This document shows positions 2,767 through 5,900 of a stretch of DNA of 31,307 nt, piece by piece. This DNA is from a virus. The notes under the pieces were generated by a model, which saw only the letters and a list, made by a program, of their open reading frames with translations, had not been told where the DNA came from and searched no databases. The stretch lies in IMG/VR virus record IMGVR_UViG_3300031602_000019, positions 1 to 31,307 of that record. One strand, 5' to 3'. A program made the translations under genes and the position numbers. Each line of letters begins with the position of its first letter. Within the stretch, counting starts at the first letter, position 1.

Positions 2767-2794
2767 ATTATAACCAAACATATTGCTTTGTCAA
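2767..2794 (-). promoter_or_regulatory. Consensus sigma70 promoter, leftward
   Basis: On the minus strand, TTGACA (2789-2794) and TATAAT (2767-2772) are both perfect consensus hexamers, 16 bases apart. Predicted start is near 2760. It would drive the recombination module (first gene at 2295). Its -35 box overlaps the left arm of the palindrome at 2790-2804, and it shares DNA with the rightward promoter. The transcript meets a hairpin terminator almost at once. Confidence 0.75.
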
Positions 2795-2811
2795 ATTGTT
2801 TGACTTATAAT
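2783..2811 (+). promoter_or_regulatory. Sigma70-type promoter, rightward
   Basis: TTGCTT (2783-2788) and a perfect TATAAT (2806-2811) are 17 bases apart. Predicted start is about 2817-2820. It lies back to back with, and overlaps, the leftward promoter at 2767-2794. The spacer contains the 15-base palindrome. It would drive the short hairpin RNA and, by read-through, the replication genes from 3016. Confidence 0.7.
2790..2804. promoter_or_regulatory. Candidate operator: perfect palindrome
   Basis: GTCAAA (2790-2795), spacer TTG, TTTGAC (2799-2804) is a perfect 6-base inverted repeat. It fills most of the spacer of the rightward promoter and covers the -35 box of the leftward one. A dimeric repressor or activator bound here would affect both directions at once, as in lambdoid switch regions. 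No regulator gene is recognised in the window. Confidence 0.55.
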
Positions 2812-2817
2812 AGAGTT

Positions 2818-2904
2818 CTGCTCTTCCTTGGTTGGTGAGTGGTCTGTCTAACCTTCGGGTACAGACCAGAGAGAATCCCGCGATTTAATTTGCGGGTTTT
2901 TTTT
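2818..2904 (+). ncRNA. Predicted short leader/small RNA, about 85 nt
   Basis: The transcript predicted from the promoter at 2783-2811 folds into two parts. The first is a hairpin with outer stem 2840-2847 paired to 2861-2868 (core GGTCTGT/ACAGACC), a 3-nt bulge (2848-2850), inner stem ACC/GGT and a C(UUCG)G tetraloop at 2853-2858, an exceptionally stable RNA motif. The second is the intrinsic terminator at 2877-2904. No start codon with a ribosome-binding site is present, so it is probably non-coding. It may be a free small RNA, an attenuator, or a cis antitermination element in the style of the put RNAs of phage HK022 (general two-hairpin design only; no sequence match claimed). Confidence 0.6.
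2877..2904 (+). terminator. Strong intrinsic terminator
   Basis: CCCGC (2877-2881) pairs with GCGGG (2892-2896), extended by one G-U and one A-U pair, with a six-base loop and eight consecutive T at 2897-2904. It stands between the rightward promoter at 2783-2811 and the first replication gene at 3016, so it must be read through, relieved or bypassed for those genes to be expressed. Confidence 0.85.
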
Positions 2905-2954: not shown

Positions 2955-2982
2955 TTGACTTCATGTACTTGATGGCATAAGG
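2955..2982 (+). promoter_or_regulatory. Weak promoter candidate before the replication genes
   Basis: TTGACT at 2955-2960 is a good -35 box, but the best -10 candidates are poor (CATAAG at 15 bases, ATAAGG at 16). It might give basal transcription of the genes from 3016 downstream of the terminator at 2877-2904. A confident call is not possible. Confidence 0.25.
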
Positions 2983-3015
2983 TGGGATTCCAACCAACGA
3001 AATAAGGAACTTAAT

Positions 3016-3225
3016 ATGAGTATGTACTACTGCAATATCTGTGACAGGTTACGAGATTCTGATTTTATAGAAACCGTAGAGTTGAAAGGCGAACTGATAT
3101 GCGACTACCATGAGGAGGCGGATGAAATTATAGAGACTGCTGAAGATGATAGGTATGCTAAAAGCATAGAGCAACAGTTGTTCGATAAGTTTGGCATTGA
3201 TGTGGATGAAGAAGAAGATGTTTGA
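3016..3225 (+). CDS. Small acidic protein with a possible zinc site
   Basis: A 69-residue acidic protein, first gene of the rightward unit. C6 and C9 (CNIC) together with C29 and H32 (CDYH) give a C-x2-C-x19-C-x2-H arrangement that could bind zinc. The rest is Glu/Asp-rich helix, ending EEEDV. An AGGAA ribosome-binding site lies about 8 bases before the ATG at 3016. The gene overlaps the helicase start by 8 bases, which implies translational coupling. Its role is unknown. A small zinc-finger regulator or a partner of the helicase are both possible. Confidence 0.7.
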   Translation: MSMYYCNICDRLRDSDFIETVELKGELICDYHEEADEIIETAEDDRYAKSIEQQLFDKFGIDVDEEEDV

Positions 3226-4735
3226 TCTTTGGAAGCCACAACAAGCAGTCTTAGATGCTGCCCGTCTTGCTATATCTGCGGGGTCTAAGCGACCTTTAAT
3301 ACAAATGGCTACGGGTGGTGGTAAGACTGTTATCTTGTCAGAGATTTCCAGACTGGCAATTGAGAAGCACAATAGGGTGACAGTCATTACACCCCGAAGG
3401 AAACTGGTATTCCAGATAGCTAAAACCTTGGCTGCTCACGGCATGAGTTCTGCTGTACTAATGGCTGATGTTAATTATGTACAGGCATCCGTAACAGTGG
3501 CAAGCATAGACACCATTGTTTCACGCTACAAAGAACACGACCTACCTAACGCCAACCTAGTTATCATTGATGAAGCACATCTGTTTATGTCAGAAGAACG
3601 GTTAGCTATTCTCAACAGGTACGCTGACACTGGTGCTATTGTGTTAGGACTAACAGCTACTCCCGCCCTATCCAATGGGTCTGGTCTTGGAATGTTCTTT
3701 GATAGCCTATCGGTATCATGGACAATTGAACAGTTAATACAGGGTGGCTACCTATGCGCCCCGAAATACTACGCTCCCGACAAGCCCGACCTAGCCCTAG
3801 TGAATGTCACAAAGGGGACAGGGGATTACAATCAAATAAAGTTAGGCAAGGCAATGGATCAGCCAAAGTTAATTGGTGGCATCGTGGACAACTGGTTCAA
3901 GATAGCACCTTGGAAGCCTACTGTAGTGTTCTGCACCAACAAGAAACACAGCCGACATGTATGTGAAGAGTTCCTAAAGCGCGGTGTAGCTGCTGAGCAT
4001 TTGGATTCCGATACGCCAGATGATGTACGCGAGGAAGTGTACGCACGAATCGAGTCAGGTGAAACTGTAGTCCTAACGAACGTATACCTAGCCAGTTATG
4101 GATTAGACATACCCAAACTAGAGGTTGCCATCATTGCCCGACCAACCAAGTCAATCGTACTGTATATGCAGACAGTAGGTAGGGTATTGAGAACCTATGA
4201 AGGTAAGAAGTACGGCATAATCATAGATCACTCTGGTTGCGTTGATGAACATGGGTTCGTAGAGAATATATCTGGATGGTCTTTGGATGTTAAGTCTAAG
4301 ATTTCAGAGTCAGTCAAGCAACTCAAGGGTGAGAACGCCGAACCTAAAGAGATAACGTGCGAGAATTGTCTGGCTGTATTCAGTGGGGTGAGAGTCTGCC
4401 CTAGCTGTGGACATGCAATGATACCAACTACTGAGGCTATCCCCTACCACGAAGCAGACCTAGTGGAGATTGAAACTCCCGCATGGCTAGCCAGTAAGCG
4501 ATGGAATAAGCAAACATCATGGTCTGAGAAGATCGAGTTCTTTGCTCAACTACTCAGTCACCAGAGAGATAAGCATTACAAAACAGGGTGGGCTGCTAAC
4601 CAGTACCGTGAACGATCAGGCGTTTGGCCTAACGATAAACGGTTACAGGGCGCACGACCACAAGAACCAACCAAGATTTTAATAGGGTGGCTTAGGTCAC
4701 AGCAAATTAAGTACGCGAACAGGAGAGACAAATGA
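3218..4735 (+). CDS. SF2 DEAH-box helicase, RadD-like
   Basis: A 505-residue superfamily 2 helicase. From the start chosen here, motif I ATGGGKT is at 31-37, motif II DEAH at 118-121, motif III LTATP at 145-149 and motif VI QTVGRVLR at 318-325. A zinc-ribbon pattern (C381, C384, C394, C397) follows the helicase core, an arrangement like E. coli RadD/YejH. It probably remodels DNA at forks or recombination intermediates, or helps open the phage origin. I chose the ATG at 3218 (MFDLWKPQQA) because family proteins begin near here and a GAAGAAG run precedes it. Earlier starts at 3191 (TTG), 3200 and 3206 are possible. The gene ends in an ATGA overlap with the next. Confidence 0.92.
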   Translation: MFDLWKPQQAVLDAARLAISAGSKRPLIQMATGGGKTVILSEISRLAIEKHNRVTVITPRRKLVFQIAKTLAAHGMSSAVLMADVNYVQASVTVASIDTIVSRYKEHDLPNANLVIIDEAHLFMSEERLAILNRYADTGAIVLGLTATPALSNGSGLGMFFDSLSVSWTIEQLIQGGYLCAPKYYAPDKPDLALVNVTKGTGDYNQIKLGKAMDQPKLIGGIVDNWFKIAPWKPTVVFCTNKKHSRHVCEEFLKRGVAAEHLDSDTPDDVREEVYARIESGETVVLTNVYLASYGLDIPKLEVAIIARPTKSIVLYMQTVGRVLRTYEGKKYGIIIDHSGCVDEHGFVENISGWSLDVKSKISESVKQLKGENAEPKEITCENCLAVFSGVRVCPSCGHAMIPTTEAIPYHEADLVEIETPAWLASKRWNKQTSWSEKIEFFAQLLSHQRDKHYKTGWAANQYRERSGVWPNDKRLQGARPQEPTKILIGWLRSQQIKYANRRDK

Positions 4736-4923
4736 ACACAACCAAAGAACTATACGGTGACTCACAAGAACTGGCAGATGTGCTGAGAGAGTTAGCGCCA
4801 GACCATTTCGATAAAGAAGGTCTTAGGTATTACATGCACGAATCAGCATGTCACATCGAGTCACTGTACAGACATGCGCTTAACTTGGAAGCTAAGATTG
4901 TCAAGTTGGGCGGAAAGAAATGA
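4732..4923 (+). CDS. Small hypothetical protein between helicase and primase
   Basis: A 63-residue charged, helical protein with no known domain. It contains LADVLRELAPDHFDKEGLRY and a His-containing helix (HESACHIESLYRHALN). It overlaps the helicase stop (ATGA at 4732) and the primase start (ATGA at 4920), so all three are translated together. This tight coupling suggests that the protein works with helicase or primase, perhaps as a bridging or loading factor, but that is inference from position only. Confidence 0.72.
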   Translation: MNTTKELYGDSQELADVLRELAPDHFDKEGLRYYMHESACHIESLYRHALNLEAKIVKLGGKK

Positions 4924-5900
4924 TTAACGCCGACCAATCAATCAACAGGTGGTTCTCTATCCTACCCTTCTTTGGGGTGGGGCAAGAGTTCCTTACTGGA
5001 AAGAAGTCATCATGCCCTGTGTGTGGTGGGAAGGACAGATTCAGATTCGACAACAAAGAGGGCAGAGGAACTTTCTACTGCAACCAGTGTGGCGCGGGTG
5101 ATGGATACAGACTATTAATGCTCCTAAATAATTGGGAGTTCAAACAAGCAATCAAAGAGGTAGACGAAGTAATGAATACGAATCCAACCAACACGACTAG
5201 ACCCCCATCAAAGACAAACTACTCTAAGAATAAGGAGAAGCTGAACATCGTTTGGGGTAACTCCACAGCCATGCCAATGCTGACCAAAGAGAACTACACT
5301 GAGTATCCCGTGGCAGAATATTTACATGACACAAGGGGCATAGCGTTAGATACAATTAACCTAGCCAAGGGAATACGACAACACTCATCCATGACTTATT
5401 GGGAAGGGCTGAAAGATTGTGGCGAGTTCTGCACAATGATTAACAGGGCTGTAAACCTAGATAAACCAAGCACCCTACACGTCACCTACTTACAGGGTAG
5501 CAAGAAAGCATTTGTAAGCGCACCTAAGAAGTGTCTGCCTAGAACAGAAGTTCCTTTGGTTGGCAGTACCTTGCAGCTATTCCAGTACAACCCGAAGAAG
5601 GGAGTGTTAGGGATAACGGAAGGTGTGGAGAATGCTATGTCAGTGTTCCAAGTCACAGGGATTCCAACGTGGGCAGGTATCAATGCCGACAACTTACTCG
5701 CAGCAAACCTACCAGAGTCTCTGAAGGTGCTACATATCTTTGCGGATAGGGATAAAAGCTACACAGGACAGGCTACAGCGTACACTCTAGCCCGTAAAAT
5801 GGTACGGCAGGGCATCGAGGTGCATGTACACCTTCCGAAGCCTACAGAGGGCGACTGGAACGATCTACTGAGGGTGGGTAAATTAAAGATTAAGGCATAA
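4920..5900 (+). CDS. Zinc-finger/Toprim primase
   Basis: A 326-residue DNA primase. The zinc ribbon lies at 32-57 (C32, C35, C54, C57, in SCPVCGGKDRFRFD and YCNQCGAGDG), as in P4-alpha and T7 gp4-type primases. A Toprim domain follows, with the catalytic Glu E234 in GITEGVENA and the metal-binding D276-x-D278 in IFADRDKS. There is no C-terminal helicase domain, so it is a stand-alone primase that would need the neighbouring SF2 helicase or a host helicase. It makes RNA primers for phage replication. No phage DNA polymerase is visible, so the host replisome may be used. The 3' end overlaps the convergent HNH gene by 11 bases. Confidence 0.9.
   Translation: MINADQSINRWFSILPFFGVGQEFLTGKKSSCPVCGGKDRFRFDNKEGRGTFYCNQCGAGDGYRLLMLLNNWEFKQAIKEVDEVMNTNPTNTTRPPSKTNYSKNKEKLNIVWGNSTAMPMLTKENYTEYPVAEYLHDTRGIALDTINLAKGIRQHSSMTYWEGLKDCGEFCTMINRAVNLDKPSTLHVTYLQGSKKAFVSAPKKCLPRTEVPLVGSTLQLFQYNPKKGVLGITEGVENAMSVFQVTGIPTWAGINADNLLAANLPESLKVLHIFADRDKSYTGQATAYTLARKMVRQGIEVHVHLPKPTEGDWNDLLRVGKLKIKA

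Follow-up and report, generated by a model that had tools for sequence, protein, structure and literature searches.

A promoter followed at once by stem-loops and a strong terminator, just ahead of a phage replication operon, raises the question of whether the short transcript serves the operon behind it or acts as an RNA of its own. The locus lies in a window of 31,307 bases, which is the whole stretch of DNA analysed and an entire IMG/VR virus record. The window belongs to a tailed phage whose structural block occupies 8.4-31 kb of the window, on the minus strand, and an Erf-type annealing protein is found among the leftward genes preceding the replication operon. The region was compared to that of a relative, IMGVR_UViG_3300047666_000645 (29,989 bases; L001, L214+L215; hereafter g3), which was found by a helicase search and whose helicase is 81% identical. 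The features of the window discussed below are these:

2767..2794, minus strand: leftward promoter that diverges from P1 and overlaps it, with the perfect consensus TTGACA-16-TATAAT
2783..2811, plus strand: promoter P1 of the small RNA, TTGCTT (2783-2788), 17 nt, TATAAT (2806-2811)
2819..2839, plus strand: conserved box TGCTCTTCCTTGGTTGGTGAG, a 5' stem-loop with exposed loop UUGGUU, the proposed seed
2820..2904, plus strand: predicted small RNA of about 85 nt with three stem-loops, its transcription being a prediction
2840..2868, plus strand: hairpin 2, with a CUA bulge and a C(UUCG)G loop; the hairpin is retained in g3, its sequence is not
2877..2904, plus strand: intrinsic terminator, CCCGCGA-TTTAAT-TTGCGGG and T8, near-identical in g3
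2955..2983, plus strand: promoter P2, which serves the replication operon and lies 3' of the terminator, TTGACT-17-TAAGGT
2990..3009, plus strand: proposed target in the operon leader, CCAACCAA plus the Shine-Dalgarno AAGGAA, complementary to the box
3016-5900, plus strand: replication operon, with a small gene, a DEAD/ResIII helicase and a TOPRIM primase
3016..3225, plus strand: operon gene 1, 69 aa, without a Pfam family
3218-4735, plus strand: helicase gene, second in the replication operon
4920-5900, plus strand: primase gene, after the helicase in the replication operon

A sequence-only reading of this DNA had proposed a small RNA or an antitermination leader with a UUCG-loop hairpin. The promoter, the hairpin and the T8 terminator that it described are all present at the positions it gave them, and so is the stem of 8 plus 3 base pairs with a 3-nt bulge: the hairpin at 2840-2868 has 8 bp, including the terminal pair U2840-A2868, then the CUA bulge, ACC/GGU and the UUCG loop. 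The terminator consists of a 7-bp stem (2877-2896) with T8 at 2897-2904. Promoter, short RNA and intrinsic terminator make up a discrete transcription unit by prediction, which is kept in g3; the only feature seen that bears on dependence on Hfq or ProQ is the T8 tail 3' of the terminator stem. The hairpin alone has a folding energy of -11.0 kcal/mol, equalled in 9 of 2000 shuffles (it is more stable than 99.5% of them), and the RNA 2813-2904 folds at -35.1 as compared to -22.3 ± 3.2 in shuffles (z -4.0, 0/200 as good). When the terminator is left out, the stability of the remaining 63-nt leader is ordinary with respect to shuffles (z -0.6). Since this leader is not unusually stable, the case depends on conservation in g3.

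The intergenic regions of the two phages, about 670 bases, can be aligned. Both diverging promoters, the box TGCTCTYCCTTGGTTGGTRAG, the terminator with T8GCCTA and the promoter behind it are kept in both. The g3 counterparts are TTGCAT-17-TAAAAT for P1, TTGACA-18-TATACT for the leftward promoter and, at the same place, TTGACA-17-TAAGAT for P2 (joint pattern TTGACW-17-TAAGRT). The box consensus of both phages is UGCUCUYCCUUGGUUGGURAG, the g3 box being one base shorter. The small RNA has a 96-nt counterpart in g3 (L214:5016-5111, minus strand), and both RNAs are predicted to form three stem-loops, with the first loop, UUGGUU, 99-100% unpaired (100% in the window). Hairpin 2 differs between window and g3 in sequence and in length, and the UUCG hairpin, to which the earlier reading gave its headline, is the least conserved part of the unit. 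In g3 another gene stands in first place after P2; the P2 leader still has CCAACC and a Shine-Dalgarno. As a second conserved promoter comes after the terminator, the replication operon needs no read-through, and the earlier argument, which left the locus only the choice between a free RNA and attenuation of the operon, overlooks this promoter.

Other elements were seen around the unit. A tandem second promoter-terminator unit lies at 2649-2752 of the window (TTGACT-17-TATACT, terminator 2717-2750); its RNA would be about 70 nt, with one hairpin and the terminator, and g3 has the same layout in a different sequence. It was rejected as a second leader-pairing RNA: no complementarity to window leaders was found, and there was a weak hint with the g3 structural leaders (12/300). 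At 2790-2804, between the two diverging promoters and overlapping them, the window has a perfect palindrome, GTCAAATTGTTTGAC, which is not palindromic in g3 and is a possible operator. The motif CCAATAGTTGYA stands just 5' of P2 (2936-2946) and also in L227 and at L214:14626 and 14677; it is repeated upstream of terL in both phages and may be a regulator or replication site. A non-coding block at about 2488-2569 of the window (GCGGCAAGG..CCAATATACTCACA..TCACTCTTATGCTTG..TTACCCTTCTA) is strongly conserved with g3 and is perhaps an origin.

The box is complementary to gene leaders of its own phage. In both phages the P2 leader opposes CCAACCAA or ACCAACC to UUGGUUGG or GGUUGGU of the box, and its Shine-Dalgarno is also opposed by UUCC or UCCU of the box. 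The window box variant GGUUGGUGAG corresponds to the leader complement CTCACCAACC, as compared to CTTACCAACC for g3. Two other g3 leaders, on the opposite strand and just 5' of start codons, carry GCTTACCAACCAA, a perfect 13-nt complement of UUGGUUGGUAAGC. ACCAAC or CCAACC precedes several g3 non-structural genes (at 1578, 4938, 6790, 8989, 10547, 11553, 13351 and 13706); the motif adjoins the Shine-Dalgarno, and in most leaders its distance from the start codon is 19-25 nt. The g3 leader 12908, without ACCAACC, pairs through AACCAAGGAGC in another register (-19.1). The order of the segments fits antiparallel pairing: in the RNA the anti-Shine-Dalgarno precedes the anti-tag, and in the mRNA the tag precedes the Shine-Dalgarno. 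Four g3 leaders resemble related intergenic modules, so that the target sites are not all independent.

This complementarity was compared to shuffled seeds, to other stretches of the genome and to structural genes. Over 30 g3 leaders the mean duplex energy of the g3 box 20-mer was -14.3 kcal/mol, as compared to -9.6 (sd 0.8) for shuffled seeds; it was equalled by none of 300 shuffled seeds and by one of 984 20-mers sampled from the genome. Masking the Shine-Dalgarno leaves the box extreme, yet 6 of 1622 genome 18-mers score equally. In a sliding scan of both strands of the intergenic region against non-structural leaders, the highest score in both phages falls to the box, on the correct strand; against structural leaders the box is absent from the best scorers. 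Watson-Crick runs of at least 9 nt occur in 5 of the 22 g3 non-structural leaders (two of these runs are of 13 nt), where 0.054 were expected and 0/2000 shuffles did as well, and in none of the eight structural ones. ACCAACC was counted in 7 of 30 leaders of g3, as compared to 0.18 in shuffles; the gene starts of this set were assigned manually, on the basis of open reading frames and Shine-Dalgarno sites, once the motif had been noticed, and therefore the motif counts are not blind. In an automatic g3 gene set it was found in 4 of 39 leaders, still among the top 7-mers, and in ten terL relatives without the box in 2 of 577.

In the window the signal is smaller. The mean energy of the window box is better than that of 294 of 300 shuffles, the net pairing energy is modest (-9.2 kcal/mol), and runs of 8 nt or longer occur in 2 of 13 leaders, which 20 of 2000 shuffles match; one of these two leaders lies inside the last coding part of the preceding gene. 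Counts of runs tolerating G-U pairs were not above chance in the window. The accessible seed is thus complementary to ribosome-binding regions beyond chance, strongly in g3 and weakly in the window. The window evidence is weaker because the record lacks the arm that holds most g3 targets. The record appears to be truncated: a 4-kb contig (G001, L227), with a terL identical to that of the window, continues into sequence resembling the end of a gene sited in the g3 arm of about 6.6 kb, an arm that the window does not have. The window alone is insufficient as proof, and the case is carried mostly by g3.

These data suggest that the locus probably encodes a base-pairing small RNA with which the phage would block translation of its own early and replication genes. 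Host RNA polymerase would start at P1 (about 2818-2820) and stop at the T8 terminator, releasing a free transcript of about 85 nt. The 5' stem-loop of this RNA would display UUGGUU, and the loop with the flanking CUUCC/GGU would pair with leaders of early, non-structural phage mRNAs in which ACCAACC is followed by the Shine-Dalgarno, including the replication-operon mRNA starting at P2 just downstream. Such pairing would cover or abut the ribosome-binding site and lower translation, so that replication and early functions would be damped, probably as the phage enters later stages. The demonstrated basis is the sequence, the conserved architecture, the complementarity and the associated statistics; RNA synthesis, pairing in the cell, the repressive sign, the timing and a possible contribution of Hfq are what we infer. 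Repression is proposed because the ribosome-binding site would be occluded; the effect may instead be activation. More tentatively, we propose that this one RNA may co-regulate many early and replication operons through the leader tag ACCAACC beside the Shine-Dalgarno, with the anti-tag in its hexaloop, in a system equivalent to a phage repressor regulon but made of RNA alone. If this is true, a single RNA provides a compact, protein-free timing of viral gene expression, of a kind that is easily sought elsewhere, as an anti-tag RNA with tagged leaders, and easily tested with reporter fusions.

The main rival reading treats ACCAACC/GGTTGGT as DNA bound, close to start sites, by a transcription regulator of the phage or the host, with the box as the same site reversed below P1 and the terminator unit as an insulated early transcript; this reading takes first place among the rivals because the motif trails a -10-like hexamer by 6-9 nt in several g3 leaders. 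With P2 and 13706 of g3 the motif begins at just this distance past the -10 hexamer, several leaders have ACCAACC where transcription may start, and the 13-mer GCTTACCAACCAA is found in two promoter-proximal leaders of g3 and, reversed, in the box. Nevertheless, we consider a DNA site unlikely, given that the complement extends into the anti-Shine-Dalgarno stretch in the order required for RNA pairing, that leader 1578 bears the motif where no promoter was seen, that leader 12908 pairs without the motif, which a DNA motif does not predict, and that exposure of the loop is kept in both phages. Less probable still is a cis-acting attenuator, in which transcripts from P1 occasionally pass the terminator and the replication operon is tuned by folding of the 5' stem-loop onto its leader downstream. 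Box and complementary leader do lie on one strand about 145-165 nt apart in both phages, but P2 gives the operon its own transcript, g3 also has complementary leaders in front of further operons and on the opposite strand, and the terminator is without a visible antiterminator partner.

The small-RNA half of the earlier proposal is supported, as the unit of promoter, box, hairpin and terminator is kept in g3 and its box complements phage gene leaders. The antitermination half is not: two stem-loops directly after an early promoter and ahead of a terminator recall an RNA-only site acting like HK022 put, but the terminator is kept almost letter for letter, hairpin 2 is unrelated between window and g3, and the operon has a promoter of its own behind the terminator, so that such a site is very improbable here. 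The put RNAs are about 70 nt long, with two stem-loops near an early promoter, and act in cis on RNA polymerase, suppressing terminators (PMC9378689). The candidate shares the stem-loops near an early promoter and lacks sequence similarity to put: with putL and putR taken from NC_002166 via their mutual similarity, scores were 12-14 as compared to shuffle means of 13.7-14.1, and 48 vs. 15.6 in the putL-putR control. It is equally improbable that an ordinary early promoter and terminator acquired complementarity as a by-product of A/C-rich leaders, since, although only two genomes are involved, the window signal is modest and control phage G015 has ACCAAC in four leaders without the box, the g3 shuffle, genome k-mer and structural-gene controls all argue against it.

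Several known phage RNAs are comparable to the proposed base-pairing RNA. The P4 CI RNA is likewise a small phage RNA that pairs with the adjacent replication-operon leader; it differs in being processed from the leader itself and in working through transcription termination. Compared with this leader-processed type, to which c4 also belongs, our unit sits upstream of the operon, yet ends at a terminator of its own, and a separate promoter serves the operon. The phage antisense RNAs already known include c4, sar, OOP, VpdS and PreS, and the classical ones mostly target one mRNA (PMC12197685). The 77-nt c4 RNA of phages P1/P7 controls immunity through a single target, ant mRNA, whose translation it blocks; the candidate resembles it in having complementary segments in loops and in its predicted pairing around the ribosome-binding site of phage mRNA (PMC12197685). 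Unlike c4, it has its own promoter and terminator, several operons share the leader motif, and there is no known sequence relation. P22 sar and lambda OOP are antisense RNAs of 68-77 nt acting on the phage mRNAs ant and cII, respectively, and, like OOP, the candidate adjoins replication genes (PMC12197685); whereas these two have one described target each, its predicted pairing is short, divided between two segments and directed at genes in other regions of the genome. VpdS of VP882, a quorum-sensing temperate vibriophage, is trans-acting and Hfq-bound and affects phage and host mRNAs (PMC12197685). The candidate would also be a trans-acting phage small RNA; unlike those of VpdS, the targets found here are phage leaders. 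The novelty would lie in a single RNA directed at a tag that several operons of one phage have in common; the openly accessible literature was searched, and an earlier description is possible.

The unit was found in two phages only, the window and g3. In viral contigs, the exact pattern of box plus T-run gave 78 stretches, with no further convincing example on inspection, and a stricter terminator pattern gave g3 plus three unrelated stretches and nothing else. No example came from a scan of genome contigs for the box pattern, and no close relative beyond g3 and its near twin G009 from queries with the helicase, primase and arm proteins. Among named phages the element has no DNA match, the best terL relatives differing in the early region. 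No Rfam family reached its gathering score in the window; hits were sub-threshold only.

Two minor observations concern g3. A tRNA-Met gene is present upstream of terL (L214:14702-14779); none was found in the window. Four g3 intergenic regions (L214:10560-13430, minus strand) contain hairpins, such as GGTGGCA-TTGGTAACAG-TGCCACC, GTAGCA-TTCTATTGAG-TGCTAC and GGGCA-TTCTAGCGAG-TGTCC, whose arms differ from one another while remaining self-complementary and whose core is shared; standing about 20 nt ahead of ACCAACC-type leaders, they may represent an RNA element or an activator site.
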